Of a stretch of DNA of 36,190 nucleotides, positions 7,424 through 14,134 are shown piece after piece. The notes beneath the pieces are model-generated. The model ran no database searches, had not been told where the DNA came from, and worked only from the letters and a program-made list of their open reading frames with translations. The stretch is from contig QJWC01000025.1 of the NCBI GenBank assembly GCA_003235475.1, forward strand, positions 1 through 36,190, read 5' to 3'. Within the stretch, counting starts at the first letter, position 1. The number at the start of each line of letters is the position of its first letter. Source of the DNA: Acidimicrobiia bacterium (GTDB lineage: Bacteria; Actinomycetota; Acidimicrobiia; Spongiisociales; UBA5794). Both the position numbers and the translations under genes were made by a program.

Positions 7424-7861
7424 ATGTCCTATCAGATTGTGGTCGATTGCGCGGACCCTGACCTGCTCGCGCGGTTCTGGGCGGAGGCCCTGCACTACGA
7501 GTTGGAGGGCCCGCCCGAACCGCACGCGACGTGGAGGGAGTACTGGACCTCGGTCGGCGTCCCCGAGGACGAGGTGGGCGACGGCTACGACTCGATTGTC
7601 GATCCTGACGGCATCCGCCCGCGCGTGTGGTTCCAGCAGGTTCCCGAAGTCAAGTCGATCAAGAATCGGCTCCATTTCGATCTCCTCGTTGGCGGTGGTC
7701 GGTCGAACCCCATCGAGGTGCGCAAGGAACGAGTGATCGCCGAGGTCGAGCGCCTGACGGATCTTGGCGCCACCGCGATCCGGATCGTCGACCACCCGGA
7801 GTACGACCACTTCTTCGCCGCGATGGCCGATCCGGAAGGAAACGAGTTCGACGTCGTGTAG
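7424..7861 (+). CDS. VOC-superfamily (glyoxalase-like) protein
   Basis: The 145-residue protein begins at the ATG at 7424 with AAGG about seven bases upstream. It starts with MSYQIVVDCADPDLLARFWAEAL, the usual entry of small VOC proteins, and ends with ATAIRIVDHPEYDHFFAAMADPEGNEFDVV, the usual final strand (DPEGNEF). The middle contains VWFQQVPEVKSIKNRLHFDLLV, also a VOC pattern. Candidate metal or substrate ligands are the histidine in NRLHFDL and the glutamate in GNEFDV. Family members include glyoxalases, dioxygenases and antibiotic-binding proteins; the reaction here cannot be decided. It is divergent from the META lipoprotein gene and is followed after 34 bases by the PhzF-derived fragment. 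Confidence 0.85.
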   Translation: MSYQIVVDCADPDLLARFWAEALHYELEGPPEPHATWREYWTSVGVPEDEVGDGYDSIVDPDGIRPRVWFQQVPEVKSIKNRLHFDLLVGGGRSNPIEVRKERVIAEVERLTDLGATAIRIVDHPEYDHFFAAMADPEGNEFDVV

Positions 7862-7880
7862 GTGGCCGGGCTGGAGCGCG

Positions 7881-7997
7881 GCTAGGTTTCGCGGCATGTC
7901 ACGACCATGTCACGCGTTCCGTGTCCCTACCCGTGGCGACGAGGGCGGTGACCACCTCGGCGTCGTGAACGATGTCGTGGACGCATCGCACGAGAAC
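7881..7997 (+). repeat. direct repeat copy 1: phzF promoter and first 34 codons
   Basis: This stretch matches 8884-9000 at a constant offset of 1003 bases with no gap: 14 of the first 15 bases and 78 of the 102 coding bases agree by my count. It contains the leaderless -10 element, start codon and N-terminal codons of phzF. The methyltransferase gene lies between the two copies. Confidence 0.85.
7883..7888 (+). promoter_or_regulatory. duplicated -10 element (copy 1) before the phzF-like fragment
   Basis: TAGGTT, seven bases before the ATG at 7896. The same hexamer and spacing precede phzF itself (8886-8891). Confidence 0.55.
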
Positions 7998-8030
7998 ATC
8001 ACCCGGCAACCCCTCAACTGTGTCGCGTGA
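7896..8030 (+). pseudogene. phzF N-terminal fragment, possibly a coupled leader peptide
   Basis: A 44-residue open frame starts MSRPCHAFRVPTRGDEGGDH. Its first 34 residues match 25 of 34 in the start of the full PhzF at 8899 (MSRPCHVLRVFTRGDEGGNH), without any gap. After residue 34 the similarity ends and eleven unrelated codons lead to a TGA that overlaps the GTG start of the methyltransferase (GTGA, 8027-8030). By my count eight of the seventeen differing codons are synonymous, so both copies seem to have evolved as coding sequence for a while. A folded PhzF domain cannot be made from this. It is either a remnant of a second phzF, or a short translated leader that feeds ribosomes to the methyltransferase. 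Confidence 0.7.
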
Positions 8031-8848
8031 CCGCATACAACTGGTCCAGGCCCGTGACGGTGGAAGAGATGTACGGCGATTGGGATTGGGAGGCCGCGGT
8101 CGAGCTGGTCGGCGCGAGCCTCAATCCGCGGCAAAGCACGGCGATCTTCGACACCGTCGAATCCCTTGGGATCGGTTCCGACGATGTCGTACTGGACATC
8201 GGGGGGCGAGACGGCAGCCACGGCCTCGTCATGGCAGAGCGATTCGGGTGTCGGGTGATCTCGGTTGATCCGTCTCCTGCCAACATCGAGCAAGGGCTGC
8301 GTGCTGTTGCTGACCATGAGTACGGTCACATGGTCGAGCTGGTGTTGGGTGGCATCGAGGACATCCCGATTGGGGACGGTGAATGCGCCCTGGTGTTCTC
8401 CCGGGACATGATGAGCCATGTTGCCGATATCGACACCGGTCTTGCCGAGTGTCACCGGGTGCTCGAACCGGGCGGGGCGATGATCGTCCACCAGGTGTTT
8501 GCCACGGACCTCATGGAGCCGAGGGAAGCAGAGTATCTCTGGGCCGAGGCGGCGTCGGTGGCGGAGCGAATGTCGGTGGCAAACTTCGAGTCGGCCACCG
8601 CGAGAGCCGGATTCGCCATCGAGGGCCTCGATCTCGTCGGCTCCGAGTGGTACGAGGCGAATCAGGAGTCCGGGACGTCGCCCAATTACGCACTGCAGAT
8701 TTCGCGACTCCGGCGGAACAAGGATGAGTACATCGAGCAGATCGGGGAGGTCGCGTTCCGCGGTGTGTACGCCAATGCCCTGTGGGCTGTGTACATCCTG
8801 ATCGGCAAACTCGAGACCCGCCTCTACGTGTTGCGCTCCCATGGCTGA
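8027..8848 (+). CDS. class I SAM-dependent methyltransferase
   Basis: The 273-residue protein starts at GTG 8027, overlapping the stop of the PhzF fragment. The Rossmann methyltransferase core is at about 45-160. Motif I is VVLDIGGRDGSHG (an unusual GGRDG instead of GCGxG), the acidic end of strand 2 is VISVDPS, motif II/III is ALVFSRDMMSHVADIDTGL, and ECHRVLEPGGAMIVHQVF is the usual post-III segment. The arrangement resembles small-molecule N- or C-methyltransferases of the UbiE/sarcosine type. The C-terminal 100 residues are family-specific and unassigned. No separate Shine-Dalgarno is seen, which fits reinitiation from the upstream 44-codon frame. An alternative start would be the ATG at 8069. 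Substrate is unknown; phzF follows 50 bases later. Confidence 0.82.
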   Translation: MTAYNWSRPVTVEEMYGDWDWEAAVELVGASLNPRQSTAIFDTVESLGIGSDDVVLDIGGRDGSHGLVMAERFGCRVISVDPSPANIEQGLRAVADHEYGHMVELVLGGIEDIPIGDGECALVFSRDMMSHVADIDTGLAECHRVLEPGGAMIVHQVFATDLMEPREAEYLWAEAASVAERMSVANFESATARAGFAIEGLDLVGSEWYEANQESGTSPNYALQISRLRRNKDEYIEQIGEVAFRGVYANALWAVYILIGKLETRLYVLRSHG

Positions 8849-8883
8849 GCCGAGCGTCTCGTGGGTGGACGAGCAGCGGAACA

Positions 8884-9000
8884 GCTAGGTTTCGCGTCAT
8901 GTCACGGCCATGTCACGTATTGCGCGTCTTCACTCGCGGCGACGAGGGTGGAAACCACCTCGGCGTGATCAACGACGTCGTGGGTATTTCGTACGAGGAC
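8884..9000 (+). repeat. direct repeat copy 2: phzF promoter and first 34 codons
   Basis: The intact partner of 7881-7997 (offset 1003 bases). It continues into the complete phzF gene. Confidence 0.85.
8886..8891 (+). promoter_or_regulatory. -10 element (copy 2) of the phzF leaderless promoter
   Basis: TAGGTT, seven bases (TCGCGTC) before the ATG at 8899. No ribosome binding site lies between. Confidence 0.6.
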
Positions 9001-9690
9001 AAACAGCGGATTGCCACGGAGCTCGGGTTCTCGGAGACGATCTACATCGACTGGGTCGACGGTGAGCTCGACCCAGAGGTCACCATCTTCACGCCAGCGA
9101 ACGAGCTCCCATTCGCCGGTCATCCCCTCGTTGGCGCAGCCTGGGTGCTGTACATGCTCGGACCGCGGCCGACGGGACGGTTGCGGACCAGGGTGGGCGA
9201 CGTCGACTACGCGATGGAGGGCGACGTGGTTGCGGTGGACGCGTCGATCCCGATACTTCATCTCGATGATGTGACAGCGCTGAGAGCGTCGGAAGCCGGG
9301 ATGCCGCCTCCGGCCCGCACGATGTGCCTCGGCCTTCCCGCTGACTACCTCATGGCCGAGTACGACAGCTTCGACGACATCGCCTCGCTCGACCCGGATG
9401 ACGGCCCTTTGATGCAGCATCACGGCCTGTACGCGTTCGCCCGTGACGACGACACCGTGAGGGGCAGGTTCTTCTTCCCGAGCTCAGGCGTGAGAGAGGA
9501 TCCCGCGACCGGCTCGGCCGCAGTCGCCCTTGCGCACTACTACTCGGTCCTCGGCGAGACCTCGGGAGCGCTGACGATCCATCAGGGAGACGAGATCGAG
9601 AACCCCAGCACGATCGCGCTCCTGTGGGATCCGACCGGCACCAGGATCGGCGGCACCGTCCGCCGCGACAACGTCCTCCTCGTGAAGTAG
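8899..9690 (+). CDS. PhzF-family isomerase/epimerase
   Basis: The 263-residue protein has the double hot-dog-like PhzF fold. Marks of the family are TRGDEGGNHLGVIND near residue 12 (normally F..GNP..V), TPANELPFAGHPLVGAAWVL (catalytic-site region with GHP) and the second-half motif RFFFPSSGVREDPATGSAAVALAHYY (EDPATGSA). PhzF of phenazine synthesis isomerises a dihydro-hydroxyanthranilate; most homologues have unknown roles, and nothing else here suggests phenazines. The usual early catalytic glutamate is not obvious in DEGGNHLGV beyond Glu16 itself. The start is fixed by the leaderless promoter and by homology with the duplicated fragment at 7896. An in-frame extension to 8782 would run into the methyltransferase gene and is rejected. 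Confidence 0.87.
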   Translation: MSRPCHVLRVFTRGDEGGNHLGVINDVVGISYEDKQRIATELGFSETIYIDWVDGELDPEVTIFTPANELPFAGHPLVGAAWVLYMLGPRPTGRLRTRVGDVDYAMEGDVVAVDASIPILHLDDVTALRASEAGMPPPARTMCLGLPADYLMAEYDSFDDIASLDPDDGPLMQHHGLYAFARDDDTVRGRFFFPSSGVREDPATGSAAVALAHYYSVLGETSGALTIHQGDEIENPSTIALLWDPTGTRIGGTVRRDNVLLVK

Positions 9691-9699
9691 CGAGAATCT

Positions 9700-9711
9700 G
9701 GTCGTACGACC
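9700..9711 (+). promoter_or_regulatory. 12-base palindrome upstream of first ECF sigma operon
   Basis: GGTCGTACGACC is a perfect palindrome. Its core TCGTACGAC (9702-9710) ends exactly 42 bases before the GTG start of the sigma gene. TCATACGAT stands at the same distance before the paralogous sigma gene at 12030. It may be a shared promoter element or an operator. Confidence 0.5.
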
Positions 9712-9752
9712 GCCGTGTCGCGCACCTTTACGTGGCAAGAGGAGAACCTGAC

Positions 9753-10220
9753 GTGCTTGCAGATCGGCTACGGGTCGACAGCTTCACAGAGTTTGTCGGG
9801 GCCGCGGAACCGCGGCTGAGGCGTGCACTCACAGCGGCATATGGATCGCAAGCGGGCAGGGATGCCTGTGCCGACGCGCTCGCGTATGCCTGGAAGAACT
9901 GGGATCGCATTCAAGCCATGGCGAACCCCATTGGATATCTCTATCGCGTCGGATCGAGCGTTGCACAGAAGCCGCAGCAGAAGGTGATTCGCGGGGATTT
10001 CGACCCCGTGGTCGAACACCTGCCATGGATCGAACCCGGGCTCGGCGCGGCTTTGGCATCGCTGACCGACACGCAGCGGGCCATCGTCGCCCTCGTCCAC
10101 GCCTGGGACTTCAGTCTTGGTGAGGTCGCGGATCTCCTCGGTGTGACCAAGTCGACGGTTCAGACCCACGAGGTACGAGCTATGGAGACACTCCGAAGGA
10201 AGCTGGGGGTCAACCGATGA
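9753..10220 (+). CDS. ECF-like sigma factor, module 1
   Basis: A 155-residue protein starting at the GTG at 9753, with AGGAG about eight bases upstream. The region-2-like part is FTEFVGAAEPRLRRALTAAYG...DALAYAWKNWDRI, then NPIGYLYRVG, matching the sigma-70 region 2 helix pattern. Region 4 is LASLTDTQRAIVALVHAWDF SLGEVADLLGV, then TKSTVQTHEVRAMETLRRKLG, a helix-turn-helix that would bind the -35 element. Length and the absence of regions 1 and 3 fit the ECF group. The stop overlaps the start of the membrane protein gene (ATGA), as in a sigma/anti-sigma pair. A close paralogue in the same setting is at 12030. Which ECF subgroup it belongs to is not clear, and the region 2 signature is unusual. 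Confidence 0.8.
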   Translation: MLADRLRVDSFTEFVGAAEPRLRRALTAAYGSQAGRDACADALAYAWKNWDRIQAMANPIGYLYRVGSSVAQKPQQKVIRGDFDPVVEHLPWIEPGLGAALASLTDTQRAIVALVHAWDFSLGEVADLLGVTKSTVQTHEVRAMETLRRKLGVNR

Positions 10221-11947
10221 ACACCGTATCGAGAACGATCAAGGATGCTTACGTCGACATCGACGCATCACAGTCCGTCGTCTCGATCGAGGAGATCTTC
10301 CACCGAGCCGGACCTGTGCGACCGGTTGACGGCATGCATCCAACATCGCTTGGTCGTCGCGTGCCGGTAGATCGCGCTCCTCGTTGGGTTCCGGTGGTGG
10401 TTGCGCTCTCGTCGGTGGTGGTTGTCGCCGCCTTCGTCTTCGCTTCACTCCGAGCGCGTACGCCGGAGCCTGCGCCACCAGCGTCCTATACGACCGTCAG
10501 CAATCCGTCGGACCCAGACTCCACCGATGCGACGACGATCGACGGCGGTGCCATCGGAGTCGGAGTGTGGCAGGCGCACGAAGGACTCGGCGCCGGTCAG
10601 GTGTTCGTGTTGGATGGCGTCTTCATGCGGTTCGATGAGCCATACGCGCGTGCCCCTGGTTCCGACGAAGTGGCTGATCGGGACTCGTATGTGTGGGCCT
10701 CGATTGACGCGACCGAGTGGTCCCGCCTCGATCTCCCGCTCCCGGACGTGGTCCCGTACCCGGCGAAGTGGTACTTCGACGGTCGGACGCAGACGATGAC
10801 GGCTACGGGTCCGGTCACCTCGGACACGACCGAGAAGGATCGGGAGTCGGTGACCTTCCACGCGAGCGTGGATCGGCGCGATGGCGCGTTCGCGCTCGCA
10901 CTCTCGCCATTGGACTCGTCACTCGATCCGTCCAAGCTGGCACTGGACGACCGACTCGTGATCCCCGAGTTCGAAGTCGAAGGTCTCATTCCTGTGGCCG
11001 AGGCCTCGCCCGCGACGGCGTCCTTCGATTTCGAGCCGACCGCGCGGGGCGATCTCAGAGTGCTCTCCGGTTCGATCGTCTTCACGCTTCCGCCGGACGT
11101 TCTCGAGAGGCTCCCGGTCTCCACGACGTACGACGAGTGCTGTGATGCCGGTCCGCTGGACGACCGAAGTCAGCGTATGTACGACCACGGAGCGCTGGTG
11201 GCCGAGGTCGTCTCAGCGGTGCTCGGGTCAACGCTTCGGGTCGAGGTGCTCCTCGTGGGCCAGGACGGTCAACGGACAACGATCCATGTCGGCGAGGCTG
11301 ATCTACACCTACCTCGCGGCAGCGTTGTCCAATCGACTCCGTTCGTGCCGCTGACGATCAGACCGGTCGACTTCCGTGACTACGGCTTTGCCGTTGAGGT
11401 GCTCTGGATCTCGACAGATGGCGGAACGTCATATCGAGCAGTGCAGCCGCCGATGCTCGCGCGCTATGCGACATCGTGGGGATTCCCGGGCACGGTCGTT
11501 GCGCAGGGTGGGCGATTCCTTTGGTACACGGAGGTCGAGCTCGATGGCGAGAGCGGAATCGCTGTGTGGTCGACCGAAGATGGCATGACCTGGTCACACG
11601 TAGCTGACAATCTCCCGTGGTTCAACCACTCAATGATCCGGGTCTACGACGATGTACTGCTTGTTCCGAGCGAGTATCTCATCCTTCGTAGTTCGGACGG
11701 TCTGGAGTGGCACACTGTCGACGGTCACGGTGGAGACGACCTGGAGGTCTCCACCGGCGGTTTCGTCCTCTACGACTCCGACGCCGCGTACCTGTCTCCG
11801 GATGGAGAGGTGTGGCGGGGCATTGCGTTGCCGCCCGCGTTGGGCAGGATTTGGGAGGACTTCGACATCCGCTTCGTCGCCGACGTCATCGTGATCGACG
11901 AATTCGACACGGGGCTGACCTGGATCGGACGGTTCTCTGCGCCATAG
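10217..11947 (+). CDS. one-TM Asp-box repeat protein, putative anti-sigma factor, module 1
   Basis: The 576-residue protein has a short cytoplasmic part (1-55, with VSIEEIFHRAG), one TM helix (about 56-78) and a large extracytoplasmic region. Asp-box-like motifs (S-x-D-G-x-x-W), as found in BNR repeats of beta-propellers, occur at about 160 (SIDATEWS), 397 (WISTDGGTSY), 450 (VWSTEDGMTW), 490 (LRSSDGLEWH) and 525 (YLSPDGEVW). The only two cysteines are neighbours (DECCD, 308-309). The cytoplasmic stretch lacks the HxxxCxxC of zinc anti-sigma factors. Gene coupling with the sigma factor (4-base overlap) suggests that it holds the sigma factor at the membrane until an outside signal arrives. That role is inferred from context, not from homology. 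It is paralogous to the protein at 12491. Confidence 0.75.
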   Translation: MNTVSRTIKDAYVDIDASQSVVSIEEIFHRAGPVRPVDGMHPTSLGRRVPVDRAPRWVPVVVALSSVVVVAAFVFASLRARTPEPAPPASYTTVSNPSDPDSTDATTIDGGAIGVGVWQAHEGLGAGQVFVLDGVFMRFDEPYARAPGSDEVADRDSYVWASIDATEWSRLDLPLPDVVPYPAKWYFDGRTQTMTATGPVTSDTTEKDRESVTFHASVDRRDGAFALALSPLDSSLDPSKLALDDRLVIPEFEVEGLIPVAEASPATASFDFEPTARGDLRVLSGSIVFTLPPDVLERLPVSTTYDECCDAGPLDDRSQRMYDHGALVAEVVSAVLGSTLRVEVLLVGQDGQRTTIHVGEADLHLPRGSVVQSTPFVPLTIRPVDFRDYGFAVEVLWISTDGGTSYRAVQPPMLARYATSWGFPGTVVAQGGRFLWYTEVELDGESGIAVWSTEDGMTWSHVADNLPWFNHSMIRVYDDVLLVPSEYLILRSSDGLEWHTVDGHGGDDLEVSTGGFVLYDSDAAYLSPDGEVWRGIALPPALGRIWEDFDIRFVADVIVIDEFDTGLTWIGRFSAP

Positions 11948-11978
11948 GCGCGGGGTGCGCGCCGCGGTCGATTGGCTG

Positions 11979-11987
11979 TCATACGAT
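11979..11987 (+). promoter_or_regulatory. TCATACGAT element upstream of second ECF sigma operon
   Basis: TCATACGAT ends exactly 42 bases before the GTG at 12030. It matches TCGTACGAC at 9702-9710 in seven of nine positions, at the same spacing. It includes TACGAT, usable as a -10 hexamer. Confidence 0.5.
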
Positions 11988-12029
11988 GTGCACGCTTCAT
12001 GCCTTGTCGGGTGAGAGGAGCGCAAAGCG

Positions 12030-12494
12030 GTGTTGCCCGACGAAACCAGAGCCGACACGTTCTCATCATTTGTCGTGGACCGGGAGGAGCATCTTCGGAT
12101 CGCCCTGACGGCGCGTTTCGGGCCCGACCTCGGTCGCGAAGCGGCGGCCGATGCGCTTGCCTACGGGTGGGAGCATTGGGATCGGATCTCGGCCATGGAG
12201 AACCCCGCGGGATACCTCTACAGAGTGGGGATGAACGCGGCGAGGCGGTCGCGACGGCGGCCGGCGGTGGTCATGCCAGAGGTGTCGATCGAGACACCGT
12301 GGGTCGAACCGGGGTTGCCCAAGGCGCTCCAGTCGTTGTCGCCCCAGCAGCGCACGGTGGTGGCGCTCGTGTATGGCCTTGATTGGACCATGGCTGAGGT
12401 CGCGGAACTGCTCGACATCAGCAAGGCGTCTGTACAGAAGCATGCCGACCGGGGCATGAGCCGACTCCGGAGGACGTTGGGGGTGAGCGCATGA
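12030..12494 (+). CDS. ECF-like sigma factor, module 2
   Basis: The 154-residue protein starts at the GTG at 12030, with GAGAGGAG nine bases upstream. It is clearly paralogous to the protein at 9753: both share DALAYxWxxWDRIxAMxNPxGYLYRVG in region 2, and the WVEPGL/WIEPGL linker before region 4 (LQSLSPQQRTVVALVYGLDW, helix-turn-helix MAEVAELLDISKASVQKHAD). The DNA-recognition helix differs (KASVQKHADRGMSRLRR against KSTVQTHEVRAMETLRR), so the two factors may read different promoters. The stop overlaps the start of the downstream membrane protein gene (ATGA). Expression probably follows the TCATACGAT element 42 bases upstream. Confidence 0.8.
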   Translation: MLPDETRADTFSSFVVDREEHLRIALTARFGPDLGREAAADALAYGWEHWDRISAMENPAGYLYRVGMNAARRSRRRPAVVMPEVSIETPWVEPGLPKALQSLSPQQRTVVALVYGLDWTMAEVAELLDISKASVQKHADRGMSRLRRTLGVSA

Positions 12495-14134
12495 ATGCCG
12501 ACATCCGAAACCAGATCGAGTCGTACTACTCGACGATGATCGCGGATCAGCGCCCTGTGTCTCCCGACGAGGTTTCGGCAAGGATCCGGACGGTCCGACC
12601 GTTGCCCGGGCGTGTCGATAAGACGCCTCGTTGGGTTCCGCTCGCCGTAGCCGCCTCCGCAGCGGTGGCGGTCATCGCGGTCCTCGTCGTTCCGCTGCTC
12701 ACAAGCGCTCGAGATGTCACTCCGCCTGCGGTCACCACCACGACGACAATCTCGTCGACGACCACTTCCGTTGATGCGTCCAACCCCTACGGCGATCTGG
12801 CGTGGAGCCGAGCCGAGTTCGGGCCGCTCGAGACGGTCGTCGAGGTGGGCGGCACGTACTTCGCGATCGGCTCCCCTCCCGAATCGGCAGACGATGGTGG
12901 TCCGTATTTCTGGTGGTCGGATGACGGCACCACATGGACGAAGGATCTCCTGCCGGATTCGTTCGCACCCGCGTACTACTGGGACGACCAGCGCCAGCTG
13001 TTCGCCGTGTACGACCCCGCGCTCGAGAGCGTCGAGGACCCGACCTGGATGTCCCTCAACGTCACCCGAGTCGATGGTCGGCCACGCCTCTTCCTCCAAC
13101 CGAGCGCTGGCGAGCCATCGTTCGCGGTCGTCGCGGTCCTGCCCGACATGGAGGTGGACGGCCTCGTGCCGGTCGCGTTCTCCCAGATCGAGTACCACAC
13201 CGCGGATCGGCCTGTTGTGGCCCAGGTCGGCGATGTCCGTGTCACGACGGGCGCGATCCGATTCGAGATGCCAGACGAGGTCGTGGCCCAGCTGCCCGAG
13301 TTCGACGGGTTCTCCGTCTGTTGTGACCACGCGGACGCCGCCGGGGGTGAATCCATCGAATTCACATTCGAAGGGGAGCTGCGGTTCGAAAAGGTCTGGA
13401 AGGTGGAGGGACAGCGCCTGTCCGTCGACGTCATCGTGTACGACAGCGACATCCCACGCACGATTCATGCAGGACATGTCCTTCTTCCGGCGTCGATCGG
13501 CGTCTTCACGACGACCGAATACAGCGGCGGAGGCGACTACGCGGTGGACGTGATGTGGCGCTCGAGCGACGGCGGCCAGACCTACAAGCCGACCCAGCCC
13601 GAGCCGTTGCTCGCCATCGCGGGGGATCCAAGGACCTTCCCAGCCAACCCGCGTGTCCTGACCTTTGACGATCGCATGCTCTGGTACCTCGGTCATTGGG
13701 TCGGAGGACGCTGGGGCGTGGGAGTGTGGTCGTCAACCGACGGCCTCGAGTGGACGCTCGAGCAGTCGAATGTCGGATTCATCGACTCATCGATCATGCG
13801 AAAGGAGCGGGTGCTCGTGACGAGCCGATCAGACGGCTTGTGGGGCCTCAGCGTCGATGGTGTTTCCTGGGGCGTTGCGCCCGTGCCGAACGACTCGCTG
13901 GTGAATGTGTTCAGGGACGGGTTCGTCAACGTTCGGAGGGATGGAGTGTTCCTGTCCTCCGATGGTCTTTCGTGGCACCGCCTCTCTGTTCCCGAGGGAC
14001 TCGGATCCCCCGAATCGTGGGAAGCGCTCTTCCCCGGTTCGGCCGGCTACCGCGTCACCTTCTTCGGGAGCCTCGTGGTCATCGATGACTTCGATCACAG
14101 GGAGACGTGGGTGGCGATACTTCCTCAGTCCTGA
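12491..14134 (+). CDS. one-TM Asp-box repeat protein, putative anti-sigma factor, module 2
   Basis: The 547-residue paralogue of the protein at 10217 has the same plan: a cytoplasmic part of about 46 residues, the shared PRWVP at the membrane border, a TM helix (about 48-70), a Thr/Ser-rich linker (VTTTTTISSTTTS) and a large outer region. Asp-box-like motifs are at about 141 (WWSDDGTTWT), 356 (WRSSDGGQTY), 412 (VWSSTDGLEW), 452 (GLSVDGVSW) and 487 (FLSSDGLSWH). Again exactly two cysteines exist and they are adjacent (SVCCDH, 277-278), at the position matching CC 308-309 of module 1. Conserved patches include TIHxGxxxLP and the C-terminal VVIDDFDxxxTWV. The inferred role is membrane control of the sigma factor at 12030. 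The last 10 bases overlap the convergent 52-residue gene. Confidence 0.75.
   Translation: MNADIRNQIESYYSTMIADQRPVSPDEVSARIRTVRPLPGRVDKTPRWVPLAVAASAAVAVIAVLVVPLLTSARDVTPPAVTTTTTISSTTTSVDASNPYGDLAWSRAEFGPLETVVEVGGTYFAIGSPPESADDGGPYFWWSDDGTTWTKDLLPDSFAPAYYWDDQRQLFAVYDPALESVEDPTWMSLNVTRVDGRPRLFLQPSAGEPSFAVVAVLPDMEVDGLVPVAFSQIEYHTADRPVVAQVGDVRVTTGAIRFEMPDEVVAQLPEFDGFSVCCDHADAAGGESIEFTFEGELRFEKVWKVEGQRLSVDVIVYDSDIPRTIHAGHVLLPASIGVFTTTEYSGGGDYAVDVMWRSSDGGQTYKPTQPEPLLAIAGDPRTFPANPRVLTFDDRMLWYLGHWVGGRWGVGVWSSTDGLEWTLEQSNVGFIDSSIMRKERVLVTSRSDGLWGLSVDGVSWGVAPVPNDSLVNVFRDGFVNVRRDGVFLSSDGLSWHRLSVPEGLGSPESWEALFPGSAGYRVTFFGSLVVIDDFDHRETWVAILPQS

Follow-up and report, generated by a model that had tools for sequence, protein, structure and literature searches.

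Tandem ECF-like sigma factor genes, each overlapping a gene for a predicted membrane-bound anti-sigma factor, in an Acidimicrobiia genome

Layout of the two modules

The contig QJWC01000025.1 of an Acidimicrobiia bacterium (UBA5794; assembly GCA_003235475.1, 2.1 Mb, 95% complete), analyzed here from position 1 to 36,190 and called the window over this full length, carries two consecutive gene pairs, modules A and B. Each consists of a gene for a small sigma factor resembling the extracytoplasmic function (ECF) class and a gene for a protein with one transmembrane helix, predicted to be the anti-sigma factor of its neighbor. The genes and the ribosome binding sites ahead of them are:

9738-9744, forward strand: ribosome binding site of sigma A, AGAGGAG, read from the sequence
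9753-10220, forward strand: sigma A, ECF-like, 155 amino acids (aa), GTG start; Pfam Sigma70_r4, E 2e-10
10217-11947, forward strand: membrane protein A, predicted anti-sigma factor, 576 aa
12013-12020: GAGAGGAG, counterpart of the sigma A ribosome site, ahead of sigma B
12030-12494, forward strand: sigma B, ECF-like, 154 aa, GTG start; Pfam Sigma70_r4_2, E 6e-12
12491-14134, forward strand: membrane protein B, predicted anti-sigma factor, 547 aa

In both pairs, the membrane protein gene overlaps the sigma gene by the four nucleotides ATGA. The sigma factors are 50% identical across 154 aa (E 6e-49) and the membrane proteins 30% identical over their full length (E 1e-41), which confirms the two paralogous pairs of equal order that an earlier note, made from the letters of this DNA without database searches, had described. 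That note let module A begin at 9700, but the best start of sigma A is the GTG at 9753; the first ∼50 nt of the interval are non-coding for sigma A and hold a promoter-like element.

Class of the sigma factors

Both sigma factors have a sigma-4 domain with a helix-turn-helix, which scores above the cut-off of Pfam Sigma70_r4 or r4_2, and, at 154-155 aa, contain neither sigma-1 nor sigma-3 nor any other domain of Pfam or NCBIfam. Pfam does not call a sigma-2 domain in either, but a profile of their family aligns near full length to solved ECF sigma factors (CnrH, 4cxf_A, E 4e-8, profile positions 5-149), and a fused relative, described below, was modelled with AlphaFold2 (AF2) as helices 5-71, mostly with a high predicted local distance difference test (pLDDT) score. 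The best NCBIfam match of both sigma factors, over their full length, was the SigE family TIGR02983 (E 3e-18 and 2e-21); membership is ruled out by its cut-off (66 and 77 bits vs 141.6 bits).

A family of overlapping gene pairs

Seven sigma genes of this family are present in the genome of the window, on contigs C18 (two), C21, C17, C96, C82 and C10; Pfam region 2 finds 20 further genes there. Matches to the family turned up in 57 of the 60 related genomes. When GTDB genomes were scanned, 134 relatives emerged; the best 80 of these 134, which we took, are nearly all from Acidimicrobiia or related actinobacterial metagenome-assembled genomes, with one isolate, Demequina pelophila.

The search for the pair across genomes that had been proposed in the earlier note shows a tight linkage. 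Among 122 distinct family sigma genes from Acidimicrobiia and Demequina, 118 have an overlapping gene for a one-helix membrane protein directly downstream, with overlaps mostly of 4, 8, 11 or 14 nt and transmembrane helices that start at residues 36-101. Three of the other four break off at the end of a contig; the fourth is fused in frame, as sigma factor, inner segment, transmembrane helix and propeller. Conversely, a profile of the inner segment and transmembrane helix had its seven strongest matches in the window genome (E 4e-14 to 4e-8, some of the matched sequences being rows of the profile itself) each directly behind one of the seven family sigma genes, so that the homologues do stand beside sigma genes; the opposite would, according to the note, have refuted its reading. 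Weaker matches (C82:4504, C2:39050, C2:41499, C12, C13, C114) likewise lie behind ECF sigma genes. A literature search on sigma/anti-sigma systems of Acidimicrobiia found nothing relevant in the collection searched, and the family, widespread as it is, has apparently been little described so far.

The inner segment and its relation to the sigma factor

Taking the best 19-residue hydropathy window as the transmembrane helix, one per protein, we divided the inner parts of the two membrane proteins as follows:

10217-10384, forward strand: cytoplasmic segment A, about residues 1-56, predicted to bind sigma; segment-plus-helix profile E 3e-12 (A is a row of the profile)
10394-10450, forward strand: transmembrane helix A, residues 60-78; hydropathy maximum 2.72
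12491-12634, forward strand: cytoplasmic segment B, about residues 1-48, predicted to bind sigma; profile E 4e-14 (B is a row of the profile)
12635-12691, forward strand: transmembrane helix B, residues 49-67, from hydropathy; residues 48-72 are helical in the AF2 model

This leaves outer parts of 496 (A) and 478 (B) aa, in agreement with the short inner end, single helix and some 470-500 outer residues read earlier. The 118 family members have 3.4 arginine or lysine residues ahead of the transmembrane helix and 1.0 past it, which places the N-terminal segment in the cytoplasm. Its consensus across the family, M-x-D-L-x-x-Q-L-R-x-Y-x(3-6)-L/F-D-x(3)-P-V/I-x-x-E-D/E-V, comprises a predicted Q-L-R-x-Y helix and then a predicted P-V-x-x-E-D-V helix; in segment B, a low-confidence AF2 model has helices at residues 3-18 and 25-31. 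The HxxxCxxC motif, whose absence had already been noted for the two window proteins, is found in the cytoplasmic part of none of the 118 members, and any cysteine at all in only four. Identity with class I zinc anti-sigma factors is thereby ruled out.

To relate the two partners, we compared pairwise distances. Those of the sigma factors correlate with those of the segments (r 0.38, reached in 0 of 1000 permutations); with those of the transmembrane helices of the same proteins, the correlation is much weaker (r 0.10, 29 of 1000). The top covarying columns are the segment residue preceding the conserved valine (P/R/H) and sigma residue 23 (R/S/H) in the first helix of region 2, with 51 P-R, 21 R-S and 6 H-H combinations (Fisher 6e-20).

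Two members, at L120 1013-2665 (genome G036) and L221 1480-3114 (genome G012), carry sigma factor, segment, transmembrane helix and outer domain in one uninterrupted reading frame. Both come from one genus, and their aligned frames are 49% identical and homologous. The L120 fusion was modelled with AF2 from sigma rows only; separate sigma and segment rows were dropped, as the segments aligned onto the sigma part. In this model, pLDDT is mostly >88 in the sigma factor outside the linker and mostly 81-91 in the outer domain to about residue 430, and lower beyond. The outer domain matched glycoside hydrolases (GH) with propeller folds in Foldseek, namely GH117, GH130, GH43 and GH32 (E 9e-11, template-modelling (TM) score by target about 0.6).

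A common promoter motif

Expectation maximization (EM) on 116 upstream regions of family sigma genes returned the motif TGTC-R-T-[AG], followed after ∼18 nt by CTTTA or CTCTA, in 107 of them, mostly at −36 to −80 and with a log-likelihood of 554, compared to about 108 in shuffles. Its −35 flank follows the similarity of the sigma-4 regions (r 0.14, 0 of 500 permutations) and hardly that of sigma-2 (57 of 500), while its −10 side follows sigma-2 best (r 0.18, 0 of 500); the spacer follows sigma similarity less (27 and 111 of 500). The effect sizes are small, but recognition of the motif by the cognate sigma factor would be expected to leave such a pattern. Both modules carry it:

9701-9728, forward strand: promoter-like element of module A, GTCGTACG-N16-CCTT (predicted −35 and −10), from the EM motif
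11977-12005, forward strand: promoter-like element of module B, TGTCATACG-N16-CCTT, from the EM motif (pattern from 11978)

The core pattern GTCNTACG-N16-CYTT has four matches in the 2.1-Mb genome and none in the reversed control. These are the two elements above, ahead of sigma A (9701) and sigma B (11978), one ahead of the family sigma gene on contig C17 and one ahead of a gene for a PD40 lipoprotein (L028 2292-2320, G000:C17:54291), which lies directly upstream of the C17 sigma gene. From the pattern, the lipoprotein gene is the only predicted member of the regulon outside the sigma/anti-sigma pairs. As the outer domain of the C17 anti-sigma factor is also PD40, sensor and predicted target would be of a common fold. 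The doubling of the modules had been taken to suggest two signals or two regulons; one core promoter on both and just four sites in the genome make two separate regulons unlikely, and cross-activation is the simpler reading.

The outer domains

Both outer domains contain repeated Asp-boxes, which we located with the pattern [ST]x[DN][GA]..[WYF]:

10451-11944, forward strand: outer domain A; Asp-boxes at 10700, 11573, 11690 and 11795; vicinal Cys-Cys at 11138-11143
12692-14131, forward strand: outer domain B, predicted all-β, probably a propeller; Asp-boxes at 12917, 13733, 13850 and 13955; vicinal Cys-Cys at 13319-13324

The repetition, pointed out earlier, is thus real: four boxes per domain compare with 0.28 expected from shuffling, and four were reached in 1 and 0 of 5000 shuffles. 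All of them align between the paralogues, and there is a degenerate fifth box ending in Y.

The propeller fold that had been read from these boxes is likely, but it is not proven. Pfam has no match, BNR included, to either domain, and a PDB search with the pair of membrane proteins gave a single, non-significant match (DUF6242 protein 9his_H, E 0.13). Among 138 genomes of the order, none outside their own contains a full-length relative of the A/B outer domain, so that a deeper alignment for modelling was impossible; the AF2 model of membrane protein B, from a two-row alignment, has a pLDDT of 38.9, too poor to prove a fold. Its top 50 Foldseek matches are, by description, almost all propellers (sortilin, Keap1, glycoside hydrolases, DDB1), with TM-scores by query of 0.12-0.18. 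Asp-boxes are known from non-propeller folds too (PMC2716378), and the domains could instead adopt another all-β fold carrying Asp-box hairpins, for which the missing Pfam match, the poor model with its low TM-scores and the ∼200 motif-free residues between the first and second box would speak. We nevertheless consider this improbable, given that the matches are almost all propellers in spite of the poor global model and that relatives carry PD40, Kelch, PQQ and BNR domains as well as the confidently modelled GH117/GH43/GH32-like propeller.

Across the family, the outer domains are highly diverse. In 100 of them, Pfam found DUF4349, SnoaL_2, Reg_prop, DUF4440, F5/8 type C, PASTA, redoxin, sortilin-Vps10, PD40, Kelch, FG-GAP, PQQ, SGNH, transpeptidase and BNR. 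At least three Asp-boxes occur in 30 of 104 outer domains, and on the sigma tree this trait has 20 or more changes, indicating that sensors are swapped, or diverge, far more quickly than the sigma factors do. Outer domains of the transpeptidase (penicillin-binding protein), PASTA and redoxin types are possible direct sensors of β-lactams, peptidoglycan or redox state.

In A, B and the C17 protein (L028), the outer domain has only two cysteines, which form the vicinal Cys-Cys pair, and CC is enriched in outer domains of the family (12 observed, 3.5 expected). The pair is possibly a vicinal disulfide or a redox or ligand site.

Comparison with known systems

The layout, of which no described example had been known to the earlier note, has a counterpart in Tt-RpoE1/Tt-TolB of Thermoanaerobacter tengcongensis (PMC3397946), where an ECF sigma gene is likewise followed by a gene for a protein with a short inner end (∼39 cytoplasmic residues), one transmembrane helix and a large, TolB-like outer part (∼580 residues). 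Residues 1-39 of Tt-TolB bind the sigma factor in a two-hybrid assay, the protein inhibits it in vitro and the pair is autoregulated (PMC3397946). However, this is a single pair described from a Firmicute, whereas the window pairs, with their 4-nt overlap and Asp-box outer domains, are part of a multi-copy family of Acidimicrobiia.

A further analogue is SigI/RsgI of Clostridium (Ruminiclostridium) thermocellum, with several paralogous pairs per genome, a common inner sigma-binding part, one transmembrane helix and exchanged outer sensors; RsgI is controlled by intramembrane cleavage (PMC12203970). The sigma family and the inner domain differ, and most outer parts of the present family resemble propellers or enzymes instead of carbohydrate-binding modules. 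Identity with RsgI is ruled out, as Pfam found its N-terminal domain in neither the window proteins nor the relatives scanned.

In class II minimal anti-sigma factors such as CnrY of Cupriavidus metallidurans, the partner of CnrH, a cytoplasmic segment of less than ∼60 residues forms two helices wrapped around the sigma factor. CnrY shares the short non-zinc segment before one transmembrane helix, and the two helices have a possible counterpart in the low-confidence model of segment B; it is without a large propeller-like sensor. A search of the segment profile against PDB returned no anti-sigma chain, CnrY included, up to E 10; its length would suit a minimal domain of class II (CnrY-like), but this search gave no sequence relation. 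Finally, IutY (ECF243) and members of ECF52 such as SCO4117 combine sigma factor and membrane regulator in one chain, as do the two fusions described here. SCO4117 carries an outer carbohydrate-binding domain (PMC8999054); ECF52 differs in its use of a zinc-finger, and the window genes are unfused.

Proposed mechanism and alternatives

We consider it highly probable that each pair constitutes an autoregulated ECF sigma factor and a membrane-bound anti-sigma factor, whose outer domain senses a signal and whose release frees the sigma factor. The coupling itself, already proposed in the earlier note, is strongly supported by the synteny (118 of 122, with the other four explained), the fusions, the covariation and the promoter logic. 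Binding, the direction of control, cleavage and cross-activation are predictions from these computed features and from analogy with Tt-TolB (PMC3397946) and RsgI (PMC12203970). The conserved segment of ∼50 residues would hold the sigma factor at the membrane. Release would follow when the outer domain, probably an Asp-box propeller, perceives a ligand or a stress, and would most likely proceed by stepwise cleavage, the last step being carried out by a site-2 (RseP-type) protease in the transmembrane helix. The freed sigma factor would transcribe from GTCNTACG-N16-CYTT promoters, those of both modules included, so that the modules probably cross-activate each other and place two sensors on one small regulon.

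Several observations weigh against this reading. Pfam Sigma70_r2 stays below its cut-off in both sigma factors (best E 0.09), their region 2 being very divergent. The covariation of residue 23 stems, by independent pairs, mostly from one clade, with few independent changes on the sigma tree, and is therefore supportive only and given little weight. In the model of the L120 fusion, the segment helix (153-175) reaches a pLDDT of only 57-76. Three of the four promoter matches, those of sigma A, sigma B and the C17 sigma, had helped to choose the pattern; the fourth had not. Finally, proteolytic release is an assumption: the window genome has an M50 protease gene, but such proteases are near-universal (14 of 14 control genomes).

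Release could also come about through a conformational change or partner binding at the outer domain, with the transmembrane helix left uncleaved. No protease site is recognizable, and lectin-like and enzyme-like outer folds could act via ligand binding; yet one helix and a short segment leave little room for conformational signalling, and most one-helix anti-sigma factors of known mechanism undergo regulated proteolysis (for example RsgI, PMC12203970), which makes this route unlikely in our view. We assign a similarly low probability to the membrane protein being needed for activation, in the manner of FecR or IutY, such that a cleaved N-terminal fragment stays bound and helps the sigma factor. 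The two natural fusions keep sigma factor and segment in one chain, as in IutY (ECF243, PMC8999054), and a fused sigma factor must function with the segment attached. Most members, however, are separate genes, and Tt-TolB, the look-alike for which experiments exist, simply inhibits its sigma factor. It is very unlikely that the membrane protein is unconnected with the sigma factor, being a surface propeller with its inner end as a mere anchor and its gene order that of a shared operon. This reading would accommodate the extreme variety of the outer domains, but it is at odds with the overlapping linkage in 118 of 122 cases, with the fusions and with an inner segment that is conserved and covaries while the outer part varies freely.

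If the pairs do act as sigma and anti-sigma factors, the family might, more speculatively and with rather less than an even chance, form a plug-in platform, largely of Acidimicrobiia. One non-zinc segment and one type of sigma factor and promoter, in about seven copies in a 2.1-Mb genome, would be coupled to outer domains of unrelated types (Asp-box, PD40, Kelch, PQQ and GH-type propellers, PASTA, redoxin, transpeptidase), the tandem modules of the window being two inputs on one promoter set. Apart from this speculation, the sigma/anti-sigma reading gives a coherent and testable picture of possible environmental sensing in a major uncultured group of actinobacteria. The family also supplies a natural collection of exchangeable sensors that all sit on one intracellular grip, and its promoter pattern allows the regulon to be read directly from genomes. 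The promoter common to the tandem modules also raises the question of insulation between paralogous switches.

Neighboring features

Read by eye, the C17 pair appears to be flanked (L028 5465-7963) by a large LigD-like gene (non-homologous end-joining DNA ligase), followed by a Ku-like gene. In the window, upstream of module A, a 147-nt direct repeat (7852-7998 and 8855-9001, 76% identical, spacing 1003 nt) corresponds to the 5' end of a PhzF-like gene (8896-9690), duplicated upstream of a methyltransferase gene (8027-8848); it has the look of a truncated copy of the gene, or of an insertion that arose by duplication.

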